From: Hymenobacter sp. GOD-10R
GTDB lineage: Bacteria; Bacteroidota; Bacteroidia; Cytophagales; Hymenobacteraceae
Length of the DNA: 64,000 nucleotides
NCBI RefSeq assembly: GCF_035609205.1
Contig: NZ_CP141188.1
Span: forward strand, 62,001 to 126,000
Reading direction: 5' to 3'
Shown: positions 1-15,258 of the stretch, one piece after another
Layout: each line of letters begins with the position of its first letter
How positions within the stretch are numbered: position 1 is the stretch's first letter
Notes under the pieces: model-generated
Told to the model about the DNA's origin: nothing
Database searches by the model: none
The model's input: only the letters and a program-made list of their open reading frames with translations
Position numbers and translations under genes: made by a program

Positions 1-1354
1 GCGCGCCGGCTTGCCCGCGTACGTTGATGCGGCGCAAGCCATAGTGGTGCAGCAAGTTGCCGAATACGGGTTCGATGGTGCGTTGTCGCACACGGCGCAT
101 GTGCTGCCCTTGGCGGCTGCGCTGCCGATGCCAGGCCCGATGATAGGCCGCGTCAAAAGCGGAGCGATTCAGTTGCTTATGGTCCGCGTAGGGGACGCAA
201 CTCGCCTTGAAGGGACAGTGCTGGCAATCCTGATAGAAGGCTCGATAATGTTTCATCCAGTTGCCATCAGCGGTAGAGCGGTACTTGCGAAAGGGCAGCG
301 GCTTATCTGCTCGGCACCGATATTCATCGACGCGGGCGTGGTAAGTAAAGCCCTCCACGATCGGTTTGTAGGCGCCAAACACGGGTATCCACGGGGTAAC
401 ACCACTATTTTCGAGCAGGGCATAGTTAAAGCCATTGGAGTAGCCCGTATCGGCAACCAAGTCCCGCAACTGCAAGTCATTGGCCGTTAGACGTTGCTGC
501 AGGTGCTGCACAATCCGAGGTAAGTGCAGGCTGTCGCGACTGTCCGCTAAGTTCGCTTGCACATGGCTGATGACCCCCTGGGCGGTATCCACGACTAGGC
601 TGCACAGGTAGTTCAAAGCGCGCGCTTTGCCGGGCTTGATGGAGATGCGGGCTTCCGGATCGGTAGGGCTATAGTGCGTTTTGTTGCTCAGCAAGCGCGC
701 TTGGGGACGGGTAGCGCCCAAGGAACCGGGCTCCTGTTGTCGCTTGGCTTGGCGCGCCGCCTCATAGCGGAGTTGATGGGCTGGCGCGGAACGAATCGAG
801 GCCGGGTGTGGCGTGGCCGGTGTTTTCGGGGTGCTCCCCACGATGGTTAAGGTCGGCCACACTGCTTGTACTGGCTGCTTTTCGCACAGGCTGTCGAGGG
901 AGGCATTGGCTTTCACCAGGGCGGAGTCCACGGTCTGCGTGTCGCCGGCCACCAAGCCGTGTTGCACGCAGAGGCTAAAGACGCGGTCGAAGAGTTGCTC
1001 AAAAAGTGCCGCCGGGTAGAGTTGGCGGGTGCGGCTCACAGTGGAGTGCCAGGGCAGGGCTTCGTCGAGCTCGTAGCCCAGAAAGTAGAGCAGGTCCAGC
1101 CGCATCGCACAGTGCTCGAGCAGGCGGCGGTCGCTGGTGATGTTTTCCAAGTAGCCAATGAGCACTAGCTTGAAGAACACGACCGGGTCGAGCGAGGGCT
1201 GCCCGGTGTGGCTATACAGGCCTTGGGTGGCTTCATAGAGGAAGCCCAGGTCCAAGAGCGCGTCGAGTCGCCGGTAGAAGTTATGCGTGGGCACCCGCTC
1301 GGAGAGGCGGAAGTGCGTGACGAGCTGATCGGTGAACTGCTTCTTGCCTTGCAT
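1..1354 (-). CDS. IS1182-type DDE transposase, 3' end beyond the window
   Basis: The reading frame is open from an ATG at 1354 to the window edge, so about 451 N-terminal residues are present and the C-terminus is missing. The protein starts MQGKKQFTDQL and has the layout of IS1182-family transposases: an N-terminal helical domain with a NITSDRRLLEHC stretch, then a DDE core. Candidate catalytic residues are the Asp in the GDTQTVDSALV region, the Asp in LVADTGYSNG, and the Glu in RTIEPVFGNL. A Cys cluster (DCQHCPFKASC) precedes the last block, as in this family. The sequence CTTCTGCAACAGCC at 1391-1404, upstream of the start, resembles the terminal inverted repeats of such elements, but the partner end is outside the window. 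The element abuts the A+T-rich CHAT island, so it may mark an insertion boundary. The family call is firm; whether the copy is intact is unknown. Confidence 0.85.
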   Translation of the reverse strand, partial: MQGKKQFTDQLVTHFRLSERVPTHNFYRRLDALLDLGFLYEATQGLYSHTGQPSLDPVVFFKLVLIGYLENITSDRRLLEHCAMRLDLLYFLGYELDEALPWHSTVSRTRQLYPAALFEQLFDRVFSLCVQHGLVAGDTQTVDSALVKANASLDSLCEKQPVQAVWPTLTIVGSTPKTPATPHPASIRSAPAHQLRYEAARQAKRQQEPGSLGATRPQARLLSNKTHYSPTDPEARISIKPGKARALNYLCSLVVDTAQGVISHVQANLADSRDSLHLPRIVQHLQQRLTANDLQLRDLVADTGYSNGFNYALLENSGVTPWIPVFGAYKPIVEGFTYHARVDEYRCRADKPLPFRKYRSTADGNWMKHYRAFYQDCQHCPFKASCVPYADHKQLNRSAFDAAYHRAWHRQRSRQGQHMRRVRQRTIEPVFGNLLHHYGLRRINVRGQAGA

Positions 1355-1390
1355 CTTCCCTCTACGCGAATGGCTTCCCGCTGACTAGCA

Positions 1391-1404
1391 CTTCTGCAAC
1401 AGCC
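1391..1404. repeat. candidate IS1182 terminal inverted-repeat end
   Basis: CTTCTGCAACAGCC lies about 37 bases upstream of the transposase start and resembles ends of IS1182/IS5-type elements. The other end is not in the window, so the match cannot be confirmed. Apart from this, 1405-1623 holds no gene that I can see. Confidence 0.35.
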
Positions 1405-1623
1405 ACGGGCGTTTGTGAAACGATACAAACTCGACATTTGTGCAGATAAGTCGACTATGTGACTTTTACAAGGTTTACTGAGCAGCTGGGCTAATCCACA
1501 ACTAATTATAGATCAGTCTAGTCCATGTAGCTGCAAAGAATATTGTGCTCAGCTTCTATTTATACCTCACAAGCATTGTATAGCTAAATGCATGATAGCC
1601 TTTAGGTAGTTGCTTGTTCAAAC

Positions 1624-4600
1624 TCATAGCGGCAATCCCATAACTTGAAAAGCAGCCCAAAAGAAAGGATTGCTTCTATATTTCTCTTTCTGGCGTACGT
1701 GCTGAATAGCCTGTTGTAGCGCTTCAGCATTACTGATTCGGCTTTCTTGCCGTGTTGCGTAAAAGGCTTCAAATAGTACACGTGTGGCTCGATCCGGGAC
1801 TGACCATTGACTAGAAACAACAGCAGAGGCTCCTGCAGCTAAAAACGCCCATGACAAGCCGTTGGTTTCGTCTCCCTGTTCTGGGCGAGTTTGCCCTGTC
1901 TGGCAAGCACTGAGTGCCACTAGCGGATTTCCTTTAAGACGCAAGCGTAATCTTATATCGTTAACCGTAAGTCTGAGCCCTTGAGCTAGCTCTAGTCCTG
2001 AATGCAACGGATTTCGCATATCGAAACCTCCGTGGCAATTGATATGCACTACCTCAAATGATTGACTAGCAGCAGCCTCGAGTACACTTGCTGGTAACGC
2101 CTCTTCTTCTAGTAACTGTACAGCCTGCGCGAAGTGCTTACACACGGCCATTGCTTCAGGTACCACATTAGATAGATGTGCGCCACCCTCACCAGAATAG
2201 CCAACGCTAAGTAGACGTTGTTCTCCTGATTCTATTTTCTCCCTCGCATTTCGTTGCTGCTGCTCATACAGTACCTTCAGTGTAGCTAAACTAGGAACGA
2301 AGCTAATCGCATAATCTTCACTCAGATACCTACCTCGAGTACTTAAAAGTGCTTGAAAAGGTACCAGATGTAACGCATAAGTAGGAGCTACTACTAAAGA
2401 TCCATTAGGAGGCAGATAAGGAAGCAGAGGAGTTATAAGTAGCTCGTGCATCTGTTCTAGAACAGCAGAGCAATCGATTGGCTCTCTATTTATAACCCAA
2501 AAGTTATCGTGCAGAATAGCATTCAGGGGATTCGCAATTCGTTCTAATAAATTATTGGCTAACGCAACATAGCTGACAGTAGTAGGAGTAAAGATGAAAG
2601 CTCCCCAACCACCACCATGCCTGATGTATTCGACTAGTGGCACACCGTCTAGTCGTTCAGACAATACTTGAGCCTGTGTCACCGATAAAGGTGGTAACGG
2701 CTGCACAGCGATTAGTGATGGATAATTAAATAATAAGGTGTCCGTACGGCGATTAATTTCCTGCTGCAAGTAGGTTATACGACTTAGTATTTCCACAGGA
2801 GTTCGGCCTTGCCTAGAAAACGCTAACAATCCATCCAACTCTGCTCGGAATTCTTGAATAGGTTCCCAGTCCTTTGCTAAGATCGGATCGTTCTGTAGTA
2901 GTGTATCTAACGACTCTGAGTCACCAGCTAATGTCTCTGTTAGTGAACGACCTTTTCCAATCAAGGCATACGAAGCAGCTGCTTCATAATCGTTTAACAA
3001 TAAGCAGCAGTGAATAAGGTCGGCATATATCTGTGCATTGTCGTAGACTAGGTAACTTCGACTTTCTTGCCGGTAGGTTTCTGCTTGTATTAGGGTTATA
3101 GCCCTGTGAACTTCCTCAAAAGCAGCACGAGCTTCGCCCCAGCGCTTCGCTTCATAGAGTAGATTTCCTAAGCTGTAGAAAGTGTCCCGGTAAGCTTGAG
3201 GTAATTGGTCAAGCGTTCGGACTTGCAATGAGTTTCGGTAAGCTTCTATCGCCTTCTCTACGTTATGAACTCGTTCGCCATACTGACGCATTCGGTAACC
3301 ATTCCCTAAGTTCGTCTGCGTACCCGCCCACTGCTCCGGGTACGCGTCCTGGGTTAGTATCAGTAAAGATTGCTCGCACAGATCAATAGCATACTCTATG
3401 TTTTCTGCTCGAACTCCACCAGAATGTCGCAGATAAGCGTTACTCAAGTCGCTTTGCGTAAATGCTCGCTCTATTGGATACTCCTCTGGCGTAAAAACAG
3501 ACAATGCTTGCTCGAAGGCTTGAATGGCATCTACTGAGTCACCCATCAGTGCTCCATAAGAGCGTTGCACATAAGCGATTCCGAGATTCTTCTGTGCAGT
3601 TCCCCATTCAGATGGGTACTGTTCTTTGGAACACAATTCCAGTATAAGCTCACAGATTTTGATTGCTTCTTTTACGTTCTGAGCCTTGTCTTCTCTCGTA
3701 CGTTCTAAATAAATATGCCCTAAATTATTCTGTGTCCCAGCCCACTTCTCCGGATAGTGTTCATAAGTGTAAACTTGCAAGGCTAATTCTGAAGTGGATA
3801 TTGCTTTCTCTAAATTCTCTGCTCTTTCCCCACGCAAGCGGTTTCCATAACAAGAAGCTAGATTACTCTGCGCCATGGCCCAATGCTCCGGATGACGTTC
3901 ACGAGTGTACACTTGTAGTGCTCTCTCACAGAGCTGAATAGCGTGTTCTATGTTTTCTGCTGGTTCGCCAAGTAGACGTTCTAGATAGGTGGCACCTAAG
4001 TTATTCTGTAGGCTAGCCCACTCTTCCGGATACTTGTCACGGGTATGCACTTGTAATGCGAGCTCGTAAGCACGAATTGCCTCTTCTATATTTCGAGCTC
4101 GTTCGCCCATTAAACGTGTACGGTAGGTGTTTCCGAGGTTGTATTGCGCACCAGCCCATCCTTCAGAAAAATGCTCTTGCGTATACACTTTTAGAGCTTG
4201 CTTGACCTGCCAGATCGCCGTTTCTTGGTTCACTGATCTACTTCCATCTACACGTTCTTGGTAAGCTGCACCTAAGTTACTTCGTGTTCTAGCCCACTGT
4301 TCAGGATGGTGTTCACGCGTAAATTCTTCTAGCGCTGATTGAAACGCTTGTATGGCGATTTCGAGGTTGTCGACTTTCTTTCCATGCAAGCGGTTGCGAT
4401 ACGCGTTGCCTAGATTATTTTGAACGTCAGCCCAATACGCAGGAAATTGAGTTCGATTTAACGCTGTTATAGCTTGTTGATAGGCATGAATAGCATCCTC
4501 GATATTTTGCGCACGCTCACCATCTAGGCGCTCATGGTAAGTAAGTCCTAAATTATACTGCGTCTTTCCCCACAGTTCTGGTAATTTTTGCGCCGGGAGT

Positions 4601-5580
4601 ACTTGTAGTACCTGTTCGTAAATTTGAAGAGCCTTCTCTAAGTTCTCTGCTTTATCCCCATGCACTCGTACTCTGTAAGCATTGGCCAGATTGTTAAGTG
4701 TTGCAGCCCAATCCTCGAGATATTGTTCGGGTGTATATACTTGTAGTGCTTGCCTAAACGCGTAAATAGCTTCTTCTATATTCTGAGCCCGCTCTCCAGT
4801 AGTAGAATTTTTGAGGTCTGTTCCCAGCGTCATCTGCAAGAGTGCCCGTTTCTCAAGGCGATACTCTGGAGTGGATGGAAGTTGTGAGTCTTCGAGTAGC
4901 ACTAGCGCTCGACGCACTAAGGGTATACGAGTATCATCTGTCGTTTCATCGATCTTGTACAATAGCAAGCTTAATTCCATCTCCTTAAGCACTGGTTCAA
5001 CTCCCTCTTCTACACAACGTCGGATTGCCTCTTGCAAGCTGGCTACATGTTCAGTAAGCTGTGGCTGCTGCTGCACTATTTCTGTAAAGCTAGTTGCTGC
5101 TCCTGGGTGCACTAGCCATGATATACTATTTCGAAAGAAGGAGCAGGTCTGCTTCCAGTCGCCACTATTAGTCAATAGGATCGCCGCGGCTCGCGCTAGT
5201 TCGGTTTGACATTCTAGTAGAAAATTACACATATCAGAGTCACCTGCATGCTGCACTAATAAGCGTTCAAGTCCGACGTATGTATCTTGTGTTAGTAATT
5301 CAATATGGTTTAGAATATAAGCATCAACCTCCTCGGCCGGTAGATTCAAATATTCATTCAAAGCCTTATAGCTAAGCAACGTTGTGAGCACTTGGTTCAG
5401 CCACTGCTTCGCCTTTAACGACTCCGTATCAGTGGTAGAGCGAGCTGTCAATGTTTTCAACAGCGTATAATCCAATAGCGTTGGATGAGCTGCAAAGTGA
5501 TCCGCTACTTCTTGCGCCATGGTGCAGGTGAGCAACTTGTCTAGTAGCTTTTGATAAGGATTTAAGTCAAGAGAATTCAC
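1624..5580 (-). CDS. TPR-repeat CHAT domain caspase-like protease
   Basis: This 1318-residue protein has a C-terminal CHAT domain, a caspase-fold cysteine protease domain. The catalytic His is H1183 in VVHINCHGGF and the Cys is C1226 in LSACQTG; both are intact. Residues about 289-795 hold eleven regular 46-residue TPR units with the pattern P-E-x-W-A-x-x-Q-x-N-L-G-x-x-Y...G-E-R-A-x-N-I-E-x-A-I, and a twelfth, divergent unit follows. No signal peptide or membrane segment is seen, so it should be cytosolic. In known TPR-CHAT proteins (for example Csx29 of the Craspase complex) the repeats receive a trigger and the CHAT domain cuts a partner. Neither the trigger nor the substrate is visible here, and no gasdermin or Cas7-11-like gene adjoins it. 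The gene diverges from the alpha/beta hydrolase gene across only 54 bases. Base composition is more A+T-rich than most of the window, suggesting transfer. Confidence 0.88.
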   Translation of the reverse strand: MNSLDLNPYQKLLDKLLTCTMAQEVADHFAAHPTLLDYTLLKTLTARSTTDTESLKAKQWLNQVLTTLLSYKALNEYLNLPAEEVDAYILNHIELLTQDTYVGLERLLVQHAGDSDMCNFLLECQTELARAAAILLTNSGDWKQTCSFFRNSISWLVHPGAATSFTEIVQQQPQLTEHVASLQEAIRRCVEEGVEPVLKEMELSLLLYKIDETTDDTRIPLVRRALVLLEDSQLPSTPEYRLEKRALLQMTLGTDLKNSTTGERAQNIEEAIYAFRQALQVYTPEQYLEDWAATLNNLANAYRVRVHGDKAENLEKALQIYEQVLQVLPAQKLPELWGKTQYNLGLTYHERLDGERAQNIEDAIHAYQQAITALNRTQFPAYWADVQNNLGNAYRNRLHGKKVDNLEIAIQAFQSALEEFTREHHPEQWARTRSNLGAAYQERVDGSRSVNQETAIWQVKQALKVYTQEHFSEGWAGAQYNLGNTYRTRLMGERARNIEEAIRAYELALQVHTRDKYPEEWASLQNNLGATYLERLLGEPAENIEHAIQLCERALQVYTRERHPEHWAMAQSNLASCYGNRLRGERAENLEKAISTSELALQVYTYEHYPEKWAGTQNNLGHIYLERTREDKAQNVKEAIKICELILELCSKEQYPSEWGTAQKNLGIAYVQRSYGALMGDSVDAIQAFEQALSVFTPEEYPIERAFTQSDLSNAYLRHSGGVRAENIEYAIDLCEQSLLILTQDAYPEQWAGTQTNLGNGYRMRQYGERVHNVEKAIEAYRNSLQVRTLDQLPQAYRDTFYSLGNLLYEAKRWGEARAAFEEVHRAITLIQAETYRQESRSYLVYDNAQIYADLIHCCLLLNDYEAAASYALIGKGRSLTETLAGDSESLDTLLQNDPILAKDWEPIQEFRAELDGLLAFSRQGRTPVEILSRITYLQQEINRRTDTLLFNYPSLIAVQPLPPLSVTQAQVLSERLDGVPLVEYIRHGGGWGAFIFTPTTVSYVALANNLLERIANPLNAILHDNFWVINREPIDCSAVLEQMHELLITPLLPYLPPNGSLVVAPTYALHLVPFQALLSTRGRYLSEDYAISFVPSLATLKVLYEQQQRNAREKIESGEQRLLSVGYSGEGGAHLSNVVPEAMAVCKHFAQAVQLLEEEALPASVLEAAASQSFEVVHINCHGGFDMRNPLHSGLELAQGLRLTVNDIRLRLRLKGNPLVALSACQTGQTRPEQGDETNGLSWAFLAAGASAVVSSQWSVPDRATRVLFEAFYATRQESRISNAEALQQAIQHVRQKEKYRSNPFFWAAFQVMGLPL

Positions 5581-5634
5581 AGAGATAGAATTAATTTGTG
5601 TGTAGCTAAACTTTTATAAGCTCTGTTAAAACCT
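5581..5634. promoter_or_regulatory. 54-base divergent intergenic region between CHAT and hydrolase genes
   Basis: The start codons of two divergent genes are separated by only 54 A+T-rich bases, so both promoters must overlap here or extend into the genes. I see no exact TTTG-N19-TAnnTTTG Bacteroidota promoter and no clear palindrome. Co-regulation of the pair is inferred from geometry only. Confidence 0.4.
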
Positions 5635-7188
5635 ATGCTTGCTATCAATCAAGATCGTGGATTTCAACTGCGTATCAAATATCAATCTGTTGAGCGGTTT
5701 AGTATAGCAGCAGCTCATAGAGTACATGAGTCTACAGCGACGCGCTTAAAACTCATAGGAAGACCAGTCAATGAATTGATTGCAAGTATCCCTTCTGCTG
5801 TGATTGGCGATTCAATTAGAATTCTATTGGTACCTACGGTTGAATCAGCAGAGATCCAGTACTCAATCCCGCTTGAAGGTTGGTGGTCTAATCCGCGTGT
5901 CATCACCGATACGGTTATAGAAGGAACAGCATCAGGGGCAATTGAGTTAGTGATTACACTGCTACCAGAATCTTCAATCCATACCTCTGTCGAGCCAGTT
6001 CCTGATAGCTATGAACTTCCCTACGACTTATTTGACCTAGGTAACGCCGAGTATATCAGCGATTGGGTGGAAAGCGTTTCAGTTTCTGAATTGATCATGA
6101 CTGAACTAGAGAGAGATGAAGTAGAATATGAAGACGAATACTTTACACGTGGTAACTTATATACTCCTATCAAAGAAGAATACGTTTCTCCAGCAACCGA
6201 TTACACACTTTGGTATGCTACCAATCGAGAAGCTATAGTAAACGAAGGGCAAGTAAAGTTTTCTGCTAAGCGAACTAGCACGACTTTATATGGTACTTGC
6301 GTCGTGCATATTCCAGAAGGGCATATAACTGGTAAAGTCGAATCAGGCTTGATCAGAAGACAATGGAGAAAGCTAACTAACAGACCCGATGATCAAGCGC
6401 TTCAATTAGTAAAGACTGAAGCGCTACAGGCCGATGTGTATTGGGCCAGCATTAAAGCTGAAGTAAAACGCTGGCAAGAAGATGAACGTTGTGGGGTTGT
6501 CTTTCTGCATGGCTACAACGTCTCATTCGAGGAAGCAGCCATTCGAGCTGCGCAGATCGGCTACGATTTAGACATACAGGGTCCAGTTGGTTTCTTTAGT
6601 TGGCCTTCTAGCGGAGCTCTCCTCGGGTATCTATATGATGATGCCGCAATTAGTGGTAGCGAAGTAGCAATTAGTGAATACTTGCAAGAGTTTGCTCGTA
6701 ACTGCGGTGCCGAGCGCGTGCATGTTATTGCGCACAGTATGGGAAATTTACTTTTGTTACGTGCTCTTCAACGTATCGCAGAAAGTACTAAGGATAATAC
6801 TAAAATGTTCCACCATTTTATCCTGGCGGCTCCGGACGTTGACAAAGGGTTATTCGAAAGCTTAGCGCAGAACTATGATCGCGTTGCACATCACACAACG
6901 TTGTACATTTCTCATAAAGATAGAGCCTTACGTCTTGCCAGTATATTGCGGGGAGGGACCCCACGTGTTGGGTTAGCACCTCCATATACTGTTGTATCAA
7001 ACGTCGACACTATACATGTGGGCAATGTAGACATGAGCCAATTAGGCCATGGTTATTTGGCAGAAGCACGATTAGTTATTAACGACATTCATCAAGTACT
7101 ATTTCAAGATGTCTTACCTAGTAAACGTGCAGGTTTGAGCCCCAAGTTATCTGCCGAAGGATTACAATACTGGTTTATAAAAGCGTGA
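5635..7188 (+). CDS. DUF900-like alpha/beta hydrolase with a unique N-terminal half
   Basis: The 517-residue protein has a C-terminal alpha/beta hydrolase domain (about residues 190-480) of the DUF900 type. It shows the strand VVFLHGYNVSFEEAA, the nucleophile elbow AHSMGN with S368, a candidate acid in LAAPDVD, and a candidate His in QLGHGY. DUF900 proteins are predicted esterases or lipases; the substrate is unknown. Residues 1-190 match nothing I recognise. They begin as a beta-rich segment and pass through an acidic stretch (ERDEVEYEDEYF) before the hydrolase start at YTLWYATNRE. No signal peptide is evident, so it is probably cytosolic. The gene diverges from the TPR-CHAT gene and converges on the trypsin-like protease gene. 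Such hydrolases occur among effectors of NTPase-centred conflict systems, but no NTPase is visible here, so that role is inference. Confidence 0.75.
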   Translation: MLAINQDRGFQLRIKYQSVERFSIAAAHRVHESTATRLKLIGRPVNELIASIPSAVIGDSIRILLVPTVESAEIQYSIPLEGWWSNPRVITDTVIEGTASGAIELVITLLPESSIHTSVEPVPDSYELPYDLFDLGNAEYISDWVESVSVSELIMTELERDEVEYEDEYFTRGNLYTPIKEEYVSPATDYTLWYATNREAIVNEGQVKFSAKRTSTTLYGTCVVHIPEGHITGKVESGLIRRQWRKLTNRPDDQALQLVKTEALQADVYWASIKAEVKRWQEDERCGVVFLHGYNVSFEEAAIRAAQIGYDLDIQGPVGFFSWPSSGALLGYLYDDAAISGSEVAISEYLQEFARNCGAERVHVIAHSMGNLLLLRALQRIAESTKDNTKMFHHFILAAPDVDKGLFESLAQNYDRVAHHTTLYISHKDRALRLASILRGGTPRVGLAPPYTVVSNVDTIHVGNVDMSQLGHGYLAEARLVINDIHQVLFQDVLPSKRAGLSPKLSAEGLQYWFIKA

Positions 7189-7333
7189 CTAATTAATAGA
7201 AAGCTATTTGATTTAAGGGCTTGATCCAATCAAAGAGTACTCTACTAGCCAGAATGAATTAATATTTACTATTTTATATAATTATATTCACTACAGTGAG
7301 CAAAATCAACTTTAAATATTTTGCTTTAAACTT

Positions 7334-8455
7334 CTACAACTCACCTGCAGCCCATTTTTCCATAAATTCGAGCGACTCATACATTTCTTGGTCCCATCCT
7401 GCCAATCGACACTTCTGAATAAATTCAAAGTTTCTCCATGCTTTTGCTATTTCGAATTTATCTTTGAGTTGTTGTAATCTCAATAGTGGAAGTATGTGTC
7501 TGATATGTGTGACTCTTCCCACGGTATCGCTTTCATTGAAATTAGAATTGCTAGCAAGTATTTCTGGTGTTAAGCTACGCCGTCTGCTTACTATTCCGAC
7601 TAATTTATCTCTGGCAATCACTGGACCCCCACTATTTCCATAATTAATTGGCATAACAGCCCAGAAATAGGTCAGTTCTTGCTTGCTCATCACAACTTTA
7701 CCAGTAACTGAATTAGGCAGAGCAAACGTTGAGGCTACCAAATTCTGAAACGATGGTTCTACTGGTATAGGGCTTTGATGCGAGTTAATGGGAAAACCTA
7801 TTGCGTATACATCTTCTCCTTCCGATACAGGTTCAGATGCCAGATCAGCAACAGTTATAGGAGTGTAGCCGCTTTTGAGTAGATCTTCCGCAAACCCGGT
7901 GTTAATACGATCTAACGATATCACAGCAAGATCTAGATGGGAAGCAGGGGTAGACCAAGCAAAAGAATCGGTAGGCCCAATTTGCAGGTGCGACAAGTAG
8001 GGCATTAAAGGAAACGCTAGTTTACTTTCACCTTTGATTTCGTCAATAGACAACCCACGATAGATCTTCTGAAAAATGGTGTCTTGGGCTCGTTTCTTAG
8101 CATAAGCTGCTGCATCTTCTTGCATATCGGGGGGATGCGATTTATGCCACTCTGCATCCCTTTCCATTACTCGCGTAGCAGATAGCTCATCCCACACGAC
8201 GTGTTTAGCAGTAAGTAAGTATCTTCTATTCTCGTGTAAAAGAAATATGGCTGTACCAAAATCACGTATAGGAGTCCTGCGATCTTCTATAGCTGCTAAT
8301 GCAGAGTGAAACTCAGATTCGGTGATTCTTTCCTGATTTAAGTTCAGTTGAAGCCGGTGTAATATTTCATGTTGTGCGATACTATCTTCACTATCAACTA
8401 TGCATTCTAGGTGTACGACAGCTCGTTCCCATTTTTTACTATTCATAAACAGCAT
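7334..8455 (-). CDS. trypsin-like serine protease, cytosolic
   Basis: The 373-residue protein has a chymotrypsin-fold protease domain with a complete triad: H85 in LLTAKHVV, D175 in SHLDLAVIS, and S275 in NYGNSGGPV. An insertion of about 60 residues lies between the His and Asp blocks. An N-terminal helical segment of about 65 residues precedes the fold, and the last 60 residues are helical and Trp-rich. There is no signal peptide, unlike periplasmic DegP-type proteases, and no PDZ domain. Trypsin-like domains without export signals are frequent effectors in bacterial conflict islands, where a sensor triggers cleavage. It sits tail to tail with the alpha/beta hydrolase and near the CHAT protease, so three hydrolase folds are clustered. 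MNSKKWERAV at codon 4 is an alternative start. Confidence 0.78.
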   Translation of the reverse strand: MLFMNSKKWERAVVHLECIVDSEDSIAQHEILHRLQLNLNQERITESEFHSALAAIEDRRTPIRDFGTAIFLLHENRRYLLTAKHVVWDELSATRVMERDAEWHKSHPPDMQEDAAAYAKKRAQDTIFQKIYRGLSIDEIKGESKLAFPLMPYLSHLQIGPTDSFAWSTPASHLDLAVISLDRINTGFAEDLLKSGYTPITVADLASEPVSEGEDVYAIGFPINSHQSPIPVEPSFQNLVASTFALPNSVTGKVVMSKQELTYFWAVMPINYGNSGGPVIARDKLVGIVSRRRSLTPEILASNSNFNESDTVGRVTHIRHILPLLRLQQLKDKFEIAKAWRNFEFIQKCRLAGWDQEMYESLEFMEKWAAGEL

Positions 8456-8870
8456 AATTATTGGGCTAGTGTATACTTTCCGTTAAAAAATACAATTAAT
8501 TGTCCAAACAAATTTACATTTTCAATCAACTACAGAGCTAATATTAGTATGAGAACACAATCTCCTAGAGTATTCTTTATTTCATGATAATTGAGAATGT
8601 AATTCCGAGTTTTTCAACTTAGTAGCATCTAATTACTGAGCACGTCATGTGATGATACTAAGCGCAGTGACTACAGCCTATTCAATTGCAAAAGCAATCG
8701 CCTAGAGCACGTGCATGCCGCACAAATTATAACAAAACGACCTCGAACATACAGTTTTCCGGGGCCGTTGAGGTGAAGATTAAAAGTGTTCAAAAGAGCA
8801 TTCTAATTCGAGTACTTCCTAATCGTCAGGTGGGTTCAGAAAGGTGTACCTTTTTGACCTCGATTCAATG
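8456..8870. other. A+T-rich intergenic stretch with a decayed terminator copy
   Basis: No convincing gene is seen in this 415-base stretch. It holds the upstream region of the trypsin-like protease gene, and at 8734-8769 a degenerate copy of the AAAACGGCC...GGCCGTT hairpin found intact at 9346 and 12277. Confidence 0.4.
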
Positions 8871-9254
8871 TTATTTATGTCTATATATTTTGAAATCTGG
8901 TGAAGCAACCACAGAATAGTCTAGCCAGTGCTTGACAACAGTGTAATCAACCTTGTCACGGAAGTACAATAACAGAGTTGTAACGAAAAGCCCATTCAAC
9001 TTGCTGTATGATCCATTCGGACTATCTGGTTTAGGTGTACAGAGAAAGGTAAGTGCATCTTCATTTTCTAACTTTTCTTCGACACACTGAACTGCTCCAC
9101 CAGCCAACTCTTCTTTGTCAGCTACAATAAGAACAGGTACTTCGGAATCATCGAAACTCCACTCCGGTATTCCTCCTGCTTCTACTCTAGAATAAATTGT
9201 ATCAAGTAGTTCTGAGTTTGAAACCCCTGCTTTGGGGTAAACAGTAATAGCCAT
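8871..9254 (-). CDS. unrecognised 127-residue protein of the hydrolase island
   Basis: I do not recognise this protein. It starts MAITVYPKAG and is acidic in its first half. It contains a hydrophobic strand (VPVLIVADK) and a later aliphatic-aromatic segment (LNGLFVTTLLLYF) that could be a buried helix or strand. No signal peptide is present. The frame is supported by an ATG after a clear gap, by composition like its A+T-rich neighbours, and by the intact terminator behind the facing gene. It lies 415 bases upstream of the trypsin-like protease on the same strand. A role as sensor, substrate or inhibitor of the neighbouring proteases is possible but unsupported by sequence. Confidence 0.5.
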   Translation of the reverse strand: MAITVYPKAGVSNSELLDTIYSRVEAGGIPEWSFDDSEVPVLIVADKEELAGGAVQCVEEKLENEDALTFLCTPKPDSPNGSYSKLNGLFVTTLLLYFRDKVDYTVVKHWLDYSVVASPDFKIYRHK

Positions 9255-9345
9255 GTTTAAGAGATTAAGTCTGCAAACAAGGTACTGAAAAAGTATCCAG
9301 TACTATTAGCTAACGGTCGTTTATTGGAGGGCATGACACATCGCC

Positions 9346-9383
9346 AAAACGGCCTGGAAATGCAGGTTTTCCAGGCCGTTTTT
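9346..9383. terminator. bidirectional hairpin terminator
   Basis: A 13-15 base stem (AAAACGGCCTGGAAA / TTTTCCAGGCCGTTTTT) with a short loop and a T-run on the plus side and an A-run on the other. It sits downstream of the NlpC/P60 gene (minus strand) and upstream of the 127-residue protein gene. The same hairpin family recurs at 12277-12310 and, decayed, at 8734-8769. Confidence 0.75.
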
Positions 9384-9531
9384 TATTACCGTTTTTTGGA
9401 GGGCTAATGAGCCTTCCTCTTTGTCGTAGATAGCCACTCTCATGCCTTTGGAAGTGCTACGATCATGTCACAGGCCACCTACACAAGTGTTCTTGCTAAT
9501 ACGCAGAAGGATCAAGGCACCAGAAATAAGT

Positions 9532-11247
9532 TTACTGCGCCTTGTAGTACATAACCATGCTATTCCCTCTTATCCGCAACTGTGTTGCAGTAATAGCTTC
9601 AAGGGTGTAGCTGACGCTTCCGGAACCTGAAGCAAGAGGTATGGAAATCAATGTCGTTGTAGGTGATGTTTTTGTGACACAAAATGGCCCAGTTGTAGTA
9701 CCTATTTGTGCAATGTAGTATGTGCAAGTGGAGGAGACAGAGATTGGGTAGCTTCCGGACGCATCCGTGTTGGCACACGTACCGGTGGAAGAAAATACCA
9801 GCTTTGGAGTACCTGCTCCATTAAAGGTGGCTTTAGGGCAGTGGAGATTATTGGATGACAGATCGTCGAAGCCTTCCGCCACCCAGGTCCTAGAACTACC
9901 ACCGGTTAACAACTGCAAAATTGGATTGGCTACGTCAATACAGTTGTTGTTGGCTGTGGCGGTGAATGCGGCGGTTGCTGAAGCCGAAGATTTCACTGCA
10001 GCGTTTAGTTGCTGCGTGCCAAGTGTACTGCCTAACGTCCAAGTAGTCTTTACTAAGCCGTTGGCATCACTCACTGCGCTACTCGGCGTGGCGCTTCCAC
10101 TGGTTGCATCTTTGGGCACAAACGTTACGGTGACGCCTTTCTGGGCGACCCCGTCTTCATCGACAACCTTTAGTTGGACCGGTTGCGGTAGCTGCGCGTA
10201 GAGTTGGCCTGTTTGCCCATCCCCCGAGAGTTTCGTTAACTTATATTCTGGGAAGAAGCGTATGACTCCATAGCTTGACCCGAACCATGTAGTAGTTAGT
10301 GTTAGGGGACGGGGGCCCCTGCCAGGGCCTCGGTTAGCTTTCATCTGTTCGAGGACGCAAGCCTCATCGATGACGCCATTTTTTAAACAGGGCTCTTCAG
10401 GGTCAGAATGTAGTCTGTAGGAACAGTCTGAGCCATTCGATTGAAAGATACCTAATCCCTTGGCATCTCTCAGCACAATGCCAATGTGGTGAGGTGCTTG
10501 GTCCGGCCAAAATATGATGTCTCCAGATTCCAAGTCGCTGATAGACACGTCTACTTTCCGTGCTTCTACATGATAGGAGCTGCTTTGTAACGCTTTGTTC
10601 CATACAGCGGGATCAGATTGTCCACTAGCGCCCTCCGCGTCTAGTTTTAAATTTGCTCCGGCAGCAACTCGGAGGATAAAGCCACTGCAGTCCAAGCCGT
10701 ACAACGCCTCTGTTCCCCAGGTGCCTTTATACCCCCTTTTCGTAACATCTGCTTGAGTCTGAATAGTTGTGGGGCGTCCTGGTGTACGCGACGCGTAGGA
10801 CTTGGCGCCATATACGTACGCTAACCCATTGGGCTGAGCAGGTTCGTTACTTTGTACGCCTTGCGCTTGCTGATGCAGCTTTCGTGTGGTGATGTTGTTA
10901 GCCACCACCTGCATGCGGGCAAGCAACAGGCGTTTTTGCGATTCATAATTCGTCGGCTCGCTAGCGGTAGCAACTCCTCCCCGCTGCAAAGAGGGATAAT
11001 CGTTCAAGAAGTTCGGGTCGTAGGCACGTAGCGTGTCTAACAACTTGCTCCCATCAGGCAATTCTAATTCGGATAATTTATAGGTTTTCTCCGCCTGAGC
11101 ATCCAAGAGTTCCACCAGCTTCTCGCTGGGTCGCTCTGGGTCATCCGGCGTAGACGGGTTAGGATCTTTGCTGGCACAAGCTTGTAGCACTAGAAGGGCA
11201 CCGAAGAGCAGCATTGGTACCCATCGAGAATTAATAAAAAAAGTCAT
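9532..11247 (-). CDS. NlpC/P60 lipoprotein with bacterial Ig-like domain
   Basis: Starting at the ATG at 11247, the protein (571 residues) opens with a lipoprotein signal peptide ending in LVLQAC, so it should be anchored in the envelope. A longer in-frame start at 11346 would bury the signal. The NlpC/P60 cell-wall hydrolase domain follows, with catalytic Cys C187 in GLDCSGFI and catalytic His H254 in APHHIGIV. The family cleaves peptidoglycan stem peptides. An Ig-like (Big_1-type) domain with the pattern LKVVDEDGVAQKGVTVTFVP follows at about residues 345-440. The last 110 residues are Thr/Ser-rich, contain four Cys, and resemble no domain I know. It is a single-gene unit. Substrate and partners are unknown. 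Confidence 0.82.
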   Translation of the reverse strand: MTFFINSRWVPMLLFGALLVLQACASKDPNPSTPDDPERPSEKLVELLDAQAEKTYKLSELELPDGSKLLDTLRAYDPNFLNDYPSLQRGGVATASEPTNYESQKRLLLARMQVVANNITTRKLHQQAQGVQSNEPAQPNGLAYVYGAKSYASRTPGRPTTIQTQADVTKRGYKGTWGTEALYGLDCSGFILRVAAGANLKLDAEGASGQSDPAVWNKALQSSSYHVEARKVDVSISDLESGDIIFWPDQAPHHIGIVLRDAKGLGIFQSNGSDCSYRLHSDPEEPCLKNGVIDEACVLEQMKANRGPGRGPRPLTLTTTWFGSSYGVIRFFPEYKLTKLSGDGQTGQLYAQLPQPVQLKVVDEDGVAQKGVTVTFVPKDATSGSATPSSAVSDANGLVKTTWTLGSTLGTQQLNAAVKSSASATAAFTATANNNCIDVANPILQLLTGGSSRTWVAEGFDDLSSNNLHCPKATFNGAGTPKLVFSSTGTCANTDASGSYPISVSSTCTYYIAQIGTTTGPFCVTKTSPTTTLISIPLASGSGSVSYTLEAITATQLRIRGNSMVMYYKAQ

Positions 11248-11665
11248 AATTGGTGAAGAATGACTACTGTGAGGTTCAAACGTATTATATTTTAATCCTG
11301 ATTTGACGTAAAAATATACAATTTTTATCCTGCCGTAGCTAAGCAAGGCGCACTTTTCATAGGCACCTTTGGGGTGCTGTAGTTGTGCTATTGAATCTAC
11401 TCAAAGTAAGTTCTGCTGCTTGGCCCTAAACCAACGGTTTTTGGGCAGTTTCTAAGGCTGCGAATACACGCTAGAAACGCCGTTTTTCAGGACTGATTTT
11501 GGTACCCTTTTTTGCGCACCATCAGAAGATCTTGTTGTATAGGTTGTGCACGCCATAGAAAAGTGTGGTACCCTGCGACTACTTTACGTAGTTATCTGGT
11601 GGCAAATCCGTAGTTATACTTCTGGAGTCCGTAGTAGCCGCTTTTTTCCGGCCGTACAACCAGGG
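11248..11665. other. divergent intergenic region before the BLUF gene
   Basis: This 418-base stretch separates the NlpC/P60 gene from the BLUF gene and should hold both promoters. A longer BLUF reading frame begins at 11546, but its extra 40 residues have no domain-like features. I see no other gene. Confidence 0.4.
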
Positions 11666-12247
11666 ATGGAAGATCTCTCGACAGAAGCGGCGCGACGCCG
11701 GGCCATTGCCTGGGCCACGGCCTTGGCAGCTAATACTCCCCTGGAACCACAAGCCTACGAACGAGCGCTACTAGATGAGTATGCCGTGGGGACCCTTTCC
11801 CTGGAACAGGTGCTGCGCCTACTTGATGGACGAATCAAGCACGTGCTCTATCGCAGCCGTGCAACACAGGCCTTCGAGGAAGAGCAGATTAGCGAACTGC
11901 TCGAGGAATCACGTGCCTGGAATGAAAGGCACGGCATCACGGGGCTGCTGTGCTACAGTGATCGCCAGTTTGTGCAGTTGCTAGAAGGCAATTCTGACCC
12001 CGTGGACTTGCTCTATAGCCGCATTCAGCGCGACACCCGCCACCGACAAGTAACGACCCTAAGTACCGCGCACGGGGCACAGCGCTTTTTTGCCGATTGG
12101 CAAATGGGCTTCGTGACCGTGGACGAAGGGGAGTTTCACTGGGTACTAACCAGTTTGGATCACCCGAGCTATAATGCCTCTCTCATCGAGCAGTACGTGC
12201 GGGATCCACATTTGCGCACCCTGCTAGAAGCTTTCAGTAAGGCGTAA
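11666..12247 (+). CDS. BLUF-domain blue-light sensor with N-terminal helical extension
   Basis: The 193-residue protein has a BLUF domain (about residues 57-150), which binds FAD and responds to blue light. The photochemical residues match AppA in spacing: Y62 (YRSR), N86 (WNERHG) and Q104 (FVQLLEG) are 24 and 18 residues apart, as are Y21, N45 and Q63. W145 and M147 sit where AppA has W104 and M106. The first 55 residues are helical and include YAVGTLSLEQVLRLLDG, which resembles the C-terminal helix motif of VbhA-like antitoxins; that match is tentative. No output enzyme is fused, so signalling must go through a partner protein. The start at 11666 is preferred because the 40 upstream codons look non-coding. 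The gene stands alone and ends before a strong hairpin. Confidence 0.88.
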   Translation: MEDLSTEAARRRAIAWATALAANTPLEPQAYERALLDEYAVGTLSLEQVLRLLDGRIKHVLYRSRATQAFEEEQISELLEESRAWNERHGITGLLCYSDRQFVQLLEGNSDPVDLLYSRIQRDTRHRQVTTLSTAHGAQRFFADWQMGFVTVDEGEFHWVLTSLDHPSYNASLIEQYVRDPHLRTLLEAFSKA

Positions 12248-12593: not shown

Positions 12594-13760
12594 TTATTCG
12601 TTTGTCATAACGAAGAGCTGCTCTGGCGAAATAGCACGAATGTGCGCGCTATGCAGGCTGGCACACGAAGCAAAAAAGCCCCCGCACTGCTCCTGCACCC
12701 CGCAACCATCACACGCGGGCAGATAGATATTCTTCCAGTCCGAGATCGAGCGGCGAGCAAAGCCCCACAGCGACTCGGGTAGCAAGCAGAGCTGGTGGTT
12801 GTAGATGGAGACGTGCAGGCGATGCAAGGCTAAGAACTCTACCGCTTCCTGCAGTTGGGTCATGTATTCCACCGGATCCATCCACAGCTTATCCCTGTTG
12901 TGGGGCGTGTAGCCTGTGTTCTCCAGGCCCATGAAGGTGACGTGCTCGACAAAGGGCAAGTTGCGGTAGATGAACTTGGCTAGCTTGACCAACCGAGGCA
13001 CGGTCAAGCGGTGTACCACCACGCGAATTTCTACCCGTTGCCCGACGGCTGCCAAGTGATGCAAGCCCCGCACGGTTTGGTCAAATGCCCCCGGCGCTTG
13101 CACGATGTAGTCGTGCAAGTGGTAATGATCCGCGTAGAGCGGAATACCCAGCATAAGCTGCGGCAACTCCAAGGCGCCTAAGCGCTCGGCGAAACCCTTC
13201 CAGGCAAACGTGCGTCCATTGGTCAGGCAATGCAACTCCGTGGTAGGCAAGTGCTGCTTGCACAGGCCGAGCAGCTCAAAGAAGGCGTCTCCCAGCAAAG
13301 TAGGCTCCCCGCCCGTGATGCCTAGCTCCGCGCAATCCGCGGGAATCAGCGGAATCACTTGCCGGTACAGCTGCATCAGATAGCCCGTGTCATCCCGGTC
13401 TTTCGGCGGCTGTGAGCACATCAGGCAGTTACTATTACAGCGCTCCGTGGCCAGCAGAAAGTTCTGCCGGGACTGTACCCGGTACTGGCGTACGATCTGC
13501 CCATTCGGATCCAAGGAGACCACATCGCCTTCATCGAGATCGGCGAGCGCTAGCAGGTTGTACACACAGGGGGTCTGTAGTTCCGCCGGCACCTGCAGAG
13601 CTGAGGTGAGCACCGCCCCAAAGCCTGCGGCATGTGCAGGATCAACGCGCGCGGCATCGACCACCAGAAAACGGTTATGACCACCTTGCGCCGGATCATA
13701 GGTAATAGTGCCCACCAAAGAGATTGTAATCTGGTGTGCGTTTCCTCGAATACGTAACAT
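12594..13760 (-). CDS. hxsC: His-Xaa-Ser system radical SAM protein HxsC
   Basis: The 388-residue protein carries the radical SAM iron-sulfur motif CNSNCLMC (C108, C112, C115) and the LGITGGEPTLLG region that follows in this superfamily. A Cys cluster near the C-terminus (CDGCGVQEQC) fits an auxiliary-cluster site. It is the third radical SAM-type position of the known His-Xaa-Ser cassette, in the order hxsA-hxsD-hxsB-hxsC. HxsB and HxsC are thought to modify the HxsA repeat protein, but the chemistry has not been shown as far as I know. The gene begins 7 bases after hxsB and is followed directly by the Cys-rich lipoprotein gene. Confidence 0.85.
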   Translation of the reverse strand: MLRIRGNAHQITISLVGTITYDPAQGGHNRFLVVDAARVDPAHAAGFGAVLTSALQVPAELQTPCVYNLLALADLDEGDVVSLDPNGQIVRQYRVQSRQNFLLATERCNSNCLMCSQPPKDRDDTGYLMQLYRQVIPLIPADCAELGITGGEPTLLGDAFFELLGLCKQHLPTTELHCLTNGRTFAWKGFAERLGALELPQLMLGIPLYADHYHLHDYIVQAPGAFDQTVRGLHHLAAVGQRVEIRVVVHRLTVPRLVKLAKFIYRNLPFVEHVTFMGLENTGYTPHNRDKLWMDPVEYMTQLQEAVEFLALHRLHVSIYNHQLCLLPESLWGFARRSISDWKNIYLPACDGCGVQEQCGGFFASCASLHSAHIRAISPEQLFVMTNE

Positions 13761-13767
13761 GCCTAGC

Positions 13768-15258
13768 TTAGCTAAAATCCGCTACCCAGCGGCGGAAAAT
13801 GTCCTCAATGCGCGGATCCGTATCCATCAGTTCAAAGAGGTAGCGGATAATTTCCATGTTCTTCTGGCAGAACACACTCGTAGGCCGGTGCCCGTACATA
13901 TCGCCTTGCGTGGCATGGTGTAGCACCGGATCGGCGCCACAGTAAGGCTGAAAGGCGCATTCGGAGCAGCCCGCCAATCCTTCGTTGGACCACACGCCAG
14001 CAATCTCCTGGGCTTTGGCGCCGTAGAAGAGTTCCTGGTAGGTGTGCGTATCCAGGTGGCCGAGGCGGAATGTGTCGTCCTGCATTTCGGCCAACATGCG
14101 CGCCTCATCGGAGGCATACACGGCCCCATCGTAGTTGAACACGACCACGCTGTTCACCAGACCCGCCGGGGATTGCAAGTCCACGTATCCTACTGAGAAG
14201 GGCGTCAGAATCTTGCGCAGGATGATAGTGGCGTAGTCCTCGCGGAAGTAGTGGCCCCGGAAGTTATAATCCAGAATGTGCGCCAGGGCCGTTTTGTAGA
14301 AGGTTAAAAAGGTGTCGGTGGCGTACTTATTCTTCTTGTCGCTGCGTAAGGCAAAGCCGTAGGGCGAGATGGGCCGCAGAAAAATGCTTTTGAAGCCGCG
14401 GGCGTAGTACTCGTCGACAATGGCCAGCGGGTGCTGCAGTGAGAGGGTGGAAGTGGTCATCAGCGCCGAGACGCGATCCTCGCCCACCCACTGGCGAGCC
14501 CGCTCGATGCCTTGCACCGTCAGCTCGTAGCTGTTGCGCTTAGGCCGGTGCCGGTTGGCGTTGTGCAGGAACTCGGGACCATCCAGCGAAGTGGAGATCA
14601 GGATCTGGTGCTGCTGGCAGTACTGTAGGATCTCGTCCGTGACTACCGCCAGGTTCGTGCAGATCACAAAGGTGATGTACTTGCCCGCTTGCTGGGCTAG
14701 CCGTTCAGCGCGCTCCACGCCGTACTGGATCAACTCGAAGGCGAGTAGCGCCTCTCCCCCTTGGAACTCCATGGTGACGTATGGGTTCGGCGACTGCAAC
14801 ATCAAGTCAATCCCCTGCTCCAAGTGGTGCCGGGCCATGTTGAACGCGTCTTGATTCGCCGTCACGCGCGAGACCTGGCAGTAGTGGCAGGTGTGCTCGC
14901 AGCGCAAGGTCACCACGAAGATGTGCAGCGCGGTGAAGTGATCCAGAAAAGCCTTCTTGGTGCGATAACGGGTGGCTAGCACATCCAGCAGCGGCAGTTC
15001 GGGGGCATCGGCGATGAAGAAGCCCGCCAGCAGGTCCGCGTACAATTCTTCCTCTTGCTCGCGGTCCAATTGCCGGGTGACTAAACGGGCTACCGTACCC
15101 CGTGGCACGATCAGGTAATCTCCTACTTCGCTGACGAGTACTTCCCGCTGGGGGCTGAGCACGTGAAAGCGGAAGGGCAGTAGGTGGTACTCCTCTCCTT
15201 GAGTATATGTGTCTGCCGTCTGGAACTTGCGGGTTTTACGGGTAACGGTTGTTATCAT
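13768..15258 (-). CDS. hxsB: His-Xaa-Ser system radical SAM protein HxsB
   Basis: The 496-residue protein has the radical SAM motif CEHTCHYC (C120, C124, C127). It is followed by EFQGGEALL, the equivalent of the usual GGEP segment, and by a C-terminal SPASM-like Cys cluster (CSECAFQPYCGADP, then a further Cys). SPASM enzymes such as anaerobic sulfatase maturases and peptide-modifying enzymes use extra clusters to act on peptide side chains. The start codon overlaps the hxsD stop by four bases, so translation is coupled. The N-terminal 110 residues form a separate domain that may bind peptide, comparable to RiPP recognition elements; that last point is inference. Confidence 0.87.
   Translation of the reverse strand: MITTVTRKTRKFQTADTYTQGEEYHLLPFRFHVLSPQREVLVSEVGDYLIVPRGTVARLVTRQLDREQEEELYADLLAGFFIADAPELPLLDVLATRYRTKKAFLDHFTALHIFVVTLRCEHTCHYCQVSRVTANQDAFNMARHHLEQGIDLMLQSPNPYVTMEFQGGEALLAFELIQYGVERAERLAQQAGKYITFVICTNLAVVTDEILQYCQQHQILISTSLDGPEFLHNANRHRPKRNSYELTVQGIERARQWVGEDRVSALMTTSTLSLQHPLAIVDEYYARGFKSIFLRPISPYGFALRSDKKNKYATDTFLTFYKTALAHILDYNFRGHYFREDYATIILRKILTPFSVGYVDLQSPAGLVNSVVVFNYDGAVYASDEARMLAEMQDDTFRLGHLDTHTYQELFYGAKAQEIAGVWSNEGLAGCSECAFQPYCGADPVLHHATQGDMYGHRPTSVFCQKNMEIIRYLFELMDTDPRIEDIFRRWVADFS

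Follow-up and report, generated by a model that had tools for sequence, protein, structure and literature searches.

A TPR-CHAT protease and a divergently encoded DUF900 hydrolase form a candidate protease-gated cell-death pair in Hymenobacter

Introduction

Do neighbouring genes for three enzymes of different folds, a TPR-CHAT protease, a DUF900-clade alpha/beta hydrolase and a trypsin-like protease, form one system together with a small protein of no family, or did separate units come to lie side by side? The question is raised by a GC-poor stretch of a Hymenobacter contig, which an initial annotation had read as a single transferred module for phage defence or programmed cell death. We analysed a window of 64,000 nucleotides around it (positions 62,001-126,000 of a 135,233-bp contig, one of seven in a 7.5-Mb genome), and asked which of the four genes recur together elsewhere and which known systems they resemble.

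Results

The four genes and their surroundings

The four open reading frames lie where the initial annotation had placed them (Table 1), three with Pfam family matches and the 127-aa one without a family, and much of what had been said of them was borne out: the catalytic residues (H1183/C1226 in CHAT, S368 in the hydrolase, H85/D175/S275 in the trypsin-like protease), the divergent CHAT and hydrolase start codons 54 bases apart, the IS1182-family element as left neighbour and, judged by eye, the lack of a signal peptide in the enzymes. The argument from composition and the IS to transfer stood only in part. GC (0.40-0.46) and GC3 (0.31-0.39) are low across the four genes and the IS adjoins them, but the gene immediately to the right has a GC3 of 0.49 (0.70-0.77 in the downstream radical-SAM genes) and the contig's replication region is likewise GC-poor (0.41-0.45; L160 8-12 kb), so that composition by itself is weak evidence for transfer of the four-gene stretch alone. 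Because of a Rep3 initiator and ParA genes to the left of the window (L160:8212-11708), with integrases close by, we regard the contig as plasmid-like; when circularity was checked by end overlap, its two ends did not overlap.

Genome-wide searches returned one CHAT, one match to the hydrolase and one to the trypsin-like protein, all inside 7 kb, a clustering that is beyond chance. Scanning the region for sigma-70 promoters and terminators gave sites no more frequently than in shuffles, and the terminator scan did not report the inverted repeat found at the stretch's right border. Repeats at window 1360-9600 were mainly TPR coding repeats; the 20 repeat families shown, out of 33, included nothing CRISPR-like. 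PHROGs searches with the four proteins gave weak matches or none.

Table 1 Features of the four-gene stretch and its borders (window coordinates)
Feature	Position	Strand	Remarks
IS1182-family transposase	2..1354	-	516 aa overall, extends beyond the window's left end; abuts the island
TPR-CHAT protein	1624..5580	-	1318 aa; Pfam PF12770 E 1.2e-53, and TPR_12
Divergent spacer, protease/hydrolase	5581..5634	.	54 bases between CHAT and hydrolase start codons
DUF900-clade alpha/beta hydrolase	5635..7188	+	517 aa; PF05990 E 4.9e-42
Trypsin-like protease	7334..8455	-	373 aa; H85/D175/S275; Trypsin_2 PF13365 E 1.2e-10; no signal peptide visible
127-aa ORF	8871..9254	-	no family (Pfam)
Perfect 15-bp inverted repeat	9346..9382	.	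right edge of low-GC stretch; terminator-like by eye

To the right, the low-GC stretch is adjoined by a gene (9532-11346) whose 604-aa product matches NlpC/P60 (1.2e-7) and, by eye, begins like a lipoprotein, followed by a BLUF blue-light sensor protein (11546-12247; PF04940, 4.2e-29). Two adjacent radical-SAM genes at 12594-15258, coding for proteins of 388 and 496 aa, are possibly a peptide-modification locus; by eye, the cysteine-rich C-terminal region of the second protein resembles a SPASM domain.

A caspase-clan protease faces a lipase-like hydrolase

The TPR-CHAT protein consists of an N-terminal domain (residues ~1-240), a TPR array of 46-residue units (repeat spacing 138 bp) and a CHAT protease domain (1039-1315; PF12770) with the His/Cys pair of a caspase-clan protease, as looked for in gasdermin systems. 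In the hydrolase, an N-terminal part of no known kind (1-187), which includes an acidic stretch (112-187; 20 D/E, 3 K/R), precedes the hydrolase domain (188-517). The latter combines the PF05990 match with a conserved nucleophile, acid and His, which defines DUF900 membership here, and its putative triad, S368/D429/H472, is invariant across 20 aligned relatives. Structure comparison matched the fold to lipases, PHB depolymerase and esterases; acylaminoacyl and prolyl oligopeptidases were among the Foldseek matches, no peptidase was among the 50 VIA-align rows shown, and the modelled fold may also accommodate a peptide substrate.

The DUF900 hydrolase clade comprises 2,102 proteins at E <= 0.001. 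Among the 120 relatives listed, the domains fused to the hydrolase were CHAT (9), caspase (6), TIR (3), kinase (3), FHA (3) and PF19953 (EACC1; 1). The clade belongs to the predicted effector pool of known conflict systems.

CHAT and caspase genes are enriched beside DUF900 hydrolases

Linkage was surveyed across 84,980 species, each represented by a single genome, keeping the best 80 of at least 504 DUF900 loci, near relatives among them (L022/L023, L030/L036, L021/L026), and adding 16 more from Bacteroidota. Counts refer to the 95 of these 96 loci that were gene-called; L021 was missed by the gene caller and is counted separately. CHAT, called with profiles trained partly on the DUF900 loci themselves, was present in 10 of 179 next-door genes versus 1 of 547 genes lying five or more positions off (Fisher 5.9e-6), with L021 as an eleventh locus of this kind, and was fused to the hydrolase in 7/95 loci. 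Caspase domains, most of them called with a home-made profile with which Pfam agreed for those scanned (L128, L071), occurred in 10/179 next-door genes versus 6/547 (Fisher 1.3e-3). Altogether, CHAT or caspase domains are fused to the hydrolase or encoded next door to it in 27 of the 96 loci and are absent from both places in the other 69; in the bacterial family of the window, eight DUF900 loci had a CHAT neighbour in no case and a caspase neighbour in one (L128).

The arrangements vary. CHAT-STAND genes lie upstream of the hydrolase in L021, L022 and L036, the CHAT is C-terminal, partly with TPR, in L046, L079 and L146, and a divergent order like that of the window occurs in L046 and L080. 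A CHAT-hydrolase fusion in L013 is followed by VMAP-C, AAA and NYN-FGE genes. Two neighbours have an architecture of their own: in Bryobacter (L080:7514-9550) the divergent CHAT is fused to a SIR2-like domain, and in another Hymenobacter genome (L128:11168-14212) the gene next to the hydrolase encodes a DEAD/DEAH helicase with a fused caspase domain.

On an 89-row quick tree of hydrolases, the CHAT label requires at least 10 changes, which indicates that the association was gained or lost repeatedly. The CHAT-adjacent rows do not cluster (7 changes versus a shuffled mean of 8.4; 104 of 500 shuffles as low). The window hydrolase, on a long branch, groups with a set of rows among which are four CHAT-adjacent ones and the caspase-adjacent L128 (SH-aLRT 82). 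We also considered a longer N-terminal lock in CHAT-linked hydrolases and rejected it: the N-terminal part had a median length of 121.5 in 8 of 11 CHAT-adjacent proteins versus 134.5 in the others, so that such a lock is not general. As judged from these genomic contexts, CHAT and the DUF900 hydrolase are a recurrent, putatively functional pair; a literature search by listings and selected passages found no report that pairs them.

Close kin of the protease face a gasdermin-like protein

CHAT was found in 28 of 120 Hymenobacter genomes (27 above the cut-off), with 31 loci outside the window, and seven among the best-scoring of these were examined. Two of the seven carry close kin of the window protease (L179, 50%, and L177, 47% identity over ~990 residues; 60-61% in the last 345 residues), and the three proteins form a clade with support 97/98 in an eight-row tree whose branches outside this clade are long and uninformative on other CHATs. 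The L179 protease shares the N-terminal part (42% identity in an alignment piece beginning at residue 1), and the L177 frame is without ~200 residues there. In both loci the divergent neighbour is no hydrolase; it belongs to one family of ~245-aa proteins (L179:948-1679 and L177:5613-6347), found in eleven further loci. Among the genes nearest CHAT in the other five loci there was no DUF900, trypsin-family or gasdermin-like match, and this TPR-CHAT clade was seen with a DUF900 partner in one genome only.

The ~245-aa family has no Pfam or PADLOC match. A 13-row profile, built without any gasdermin, was searched against the PDB with hmmsearch and matched 7n50, 'Gasdermin', at E 0.0016 (columns 51-205; next match 0.32); this was the sole chain below E 0.01, and no other gasdermin chain appeared up to E 10. 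With an earlier 8-row profile this chain already ranked first, at E 0.13. The family is possibly an undescribed gasdermin branch, by this profile similarity. It occurs in 4/120 genomes of the genus (one a 28% match), in 5/385 sampled from the phylum and in four plasmid records; a viral scan gave nothing. In six of the 13 loci a CHAT or caspase gene lies immediately beside it (L177, L179, L185, L186, L196, L198), divergently in all save L186, and in two more (L195, L187) one lies within three genes; none was recognised next to it in L184, L188, L189, L197 and L199. A transglutaminase-like match near the gene in L188 is weak (E 0.0057, below the cut-off).

DUF900 and gasdermin-like genes did not occur in the same locus in any of 97 DUF900 and 13 gasdermin-like loci. 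The absence of a gasdermin, which the initial annotation had pointed out, held in that the window's genome has no match to the gasdermin-like partner or its 8-row profile, a search that very diverged gasdermins could escape. As candidates for hidden gasdermins, the hydrolase, the trypsin-like protein and the 127-aa protein were tried against the 13-row profile and did not match. From its gene order and its protease's kin, the window has the appearance of a death module under protease control, in which a lipase-like hydrolase takes the gasdermin-like slot.

The trypsin-like gene has relatives in a P2 hotspot

The trypsin-like protein has 66 relatives in a protein search, and its triad is invariant in 27 aligned rows. 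Counting the window's own each time, the family occurs in 2/120 genomes of the genus and 2/395 sampled from the phylum; relatives also lie on 12 viral contigs, one by a weak match. In five of these (L150, at L150:7953-8963, L151, L153, L155 and L156) the gene lies between P2 gpA-like replication and gpQ-like portal genes, and in L152 only the portal (gpQ) and terminase are visible beside it. The phage genes on either side share 87-97% identity with their L150 counterparts, and the five proteases share 53-83% among themselves; trypsin genes more diverged than their phage flanks are as expected of hotspot cargo. The gpA-gpQ interval of P2 is an anti-phage hotspot, holding old and tin in P2 itself (Rousset 2022, PMC9122126). 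The words 'protease' and 'trypsin' are absent from the main text of that paper, and a literature search by listings and selected passages found no trypsin-like protease placed in the P2 hotspot. Searches of plasmids with the window protein, of phages with the L150 relative and of E. coli genomes with the L151 gene gave no match.

CHAT, caspase and DUF900 had no match in the 14 trypsin contexts outside the window (L136, L147 and the 12 viral loci). In L068 a convergent trypsin-fold gene (357 aa, PF13365 1.9e-17) adjoins a DUF900 hydrolase; its resemblance to the window's family is weak (2.4e-5), and similarly weak matches (1.6e-5 to 9e-4) came from trypsin-fold genes of four other DUF900 loci. 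By its family's genomic positions, the trypsin-like gene is an additional, independent anti-phage candidate unit within the low-GC stretch. The 127-aa protein, 415 bases from the trypsin gene, had no family or relative in any search run, and its single-sequence structure model is unreliable (pLDDT 40.6).

Discussion

Judged by gene context, the single wired module of the initial annotation dissolves into a putative CHAT-hydrolase pair, an independent trypsin gene of prophage type and an orphan 127-aa protein. Its proposal of a role in defence or death is supported for the pair (recurrent linkage, domain fusions and the gasdermin-like partner of orthologous proteases) and for the trypsin family as phage-hotspot cargo; it is not supported for all four genes as one unit. 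The sequences show that the pair recurs, that its catalytic residues are conserved and that in two congeners the orthologous protease faces a gasdermin-like protein, encoded divergently in the equivalent position.

We give roughly even chances to a two-gene, protease-gated cell-death module as the core of the stretch, in which the TPR-CHAT protein, once switched on, would act on the divergently encoded DUF900 hydrolase. The N-terminal and TPR part would keep the caspase-clan protease inactive and would sense an infection cue; activated CHAT would then cut or release the hydrolase, the acidic, poorly modelled stretch 112-187 being the likeliest region for a cut. The lipase-like domain, as its fold and published predictions suggest, would harm the cell's own membrane, and the infection would be aborted.

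Could the hydrolase act on its own? It might be a solitary enzyme or effector, placed beside CHAT by accident in a stretch that acquires genes, and the bordering IS, the 69 of 96 DUF900 loci in which neither CHAT nor caspase is fused to the hydrolase or adjoins it and the absence of CHAT from the eight loci of the bacterial family are all in keeping with this. We nevertheless consider it unlikely, given that CHAT is ~30 times commoner next door than at least five genes away, that it is directly fused to the hydrolase in seven loci and that orthologues of the protease have a different candidate for membrane attack in the divergent position. The fusion followed by VMAP-C, AAA and NYN-FGE genes in L013, and the pairing of caspase with an alpha/beta hydrolase described for VMAP systems (Kaur 2020, PMC7159879), raise instead a cut-down MoxR-vWA (VMAP) network, with CHAT and hydrolase as its signalling and effector parts and an NTPase core encoded elsewhere. 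This seems quite improbable to us: Pfam detects no NTPase domain among the four gene products, in agreement with the missing sensor NTPase of the initial annotation. The window's genome has no VMAP-C match, in a search that gave no positive-control match either and so does not show absence.

A four-gene defence module, with a cascade of the trypsin-like and CHAT proteases acting on the hydrolase and the 127-aa protein as a regulator, would account for the common low GC and for genes that lie together, and the trypsin-fold gene next to a DUF900 hydrolase in L068 would suit it. It is very improbable in our view, because none of the 14 outside trypsin contexts has a CHAT, caspase or DUF900, the L068 protease, like those of four further DUF900 loci, resembles the window's family only weakly, and the 127-aa gene lies 415 bases away from that for the trypsin-like protein.

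The CHAT-hydrolase pair may have a broader meaning. A lipase could have replaced the pore former of a pyroptosis-type module, with one Hymenobacter TPR-CHAT clade serving either a gasdermin-like or a DUF900 partner at the same divergent slot; the protease would then be a general trigger and DUF900 hydrolases protease-gated membrane-death enzymes. We hold this wider reading tentatively, at somewhat less than even chances, and with two gasdermin-like loci versus one DUF900 locus the direction of exchange cannot be told. If it is true, a large DUF900 hydrolase clade of unassigned function gains a testable one, gasdermins turn out to be one kind among several interchangeable CHAT-protease effectors, and matched loci with the same protease clade and two effectors become available to work out how TPR-CHAT proteases recognise their substrates. 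The trypsin-like family, for its part, is pointed to as candidate anti-phage cargo of P2-like prophages, five viral contigs carrying its relatives in the gpA-gpQ hotspot (PMC9122126).

How does the pair compare with known systems? Craspase (type III-E) shares its TPR and CHAT architecture, and the window protein has a weak similarity to Csx29 (51.2 bits), far short of the 300 bits that the Csx29 model requires. A model of BovA, from the Borvo system, matches the CHAT region (E 1.5e-8), but the match spans residues 1152-1299 only, and the window protein differs in its TPR array and its partner gene. Bacterial gasdermin operons combine a bGSDM with a caspase-like, CHAT or other protease, and protease gating has been demonstrated for gasdermins (PMC9612521). 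The window resembles them in having a cysteine protease beside a small membrane effector, and its protease's close kin face a gasdermin-like protein; it differs in that the gene facing the protease encodes a DUF900 hydrolase and not a gasdermin. In the VMAP and GAP1-N1 systems, as Kaur 2020 (PMC7159879) describes them, a caspase-superfamily protease likewise has a neighbouring alpha/beta hydrolase, and the window's hydrolase clade adjoins VMAP-C in L013, but the four window genes have no VMAP, MoxR, vWA, STAND or GTPase domain by Pfam. The initial annotation's claim that the wiring would be new is therefore partly anticipated by these published pairs. Hachiman, AVAST and canu pairs share the proposed logic, in which a protease activates a partner proenzyme effector, and there the gating of nuclease effectors has been demonstrated (Tuck 2025, PMC12799240); their effector is an MBL-fold nuclease, whereas that of the window is a lipase-like alpha/beta hydrolase with putative gating. 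No gated lipase-like effector was found in a literature search by listings and selected passages. The predicted CHAT-hydrolase pair is a variant, unlike those known, of protease-gated death systems.
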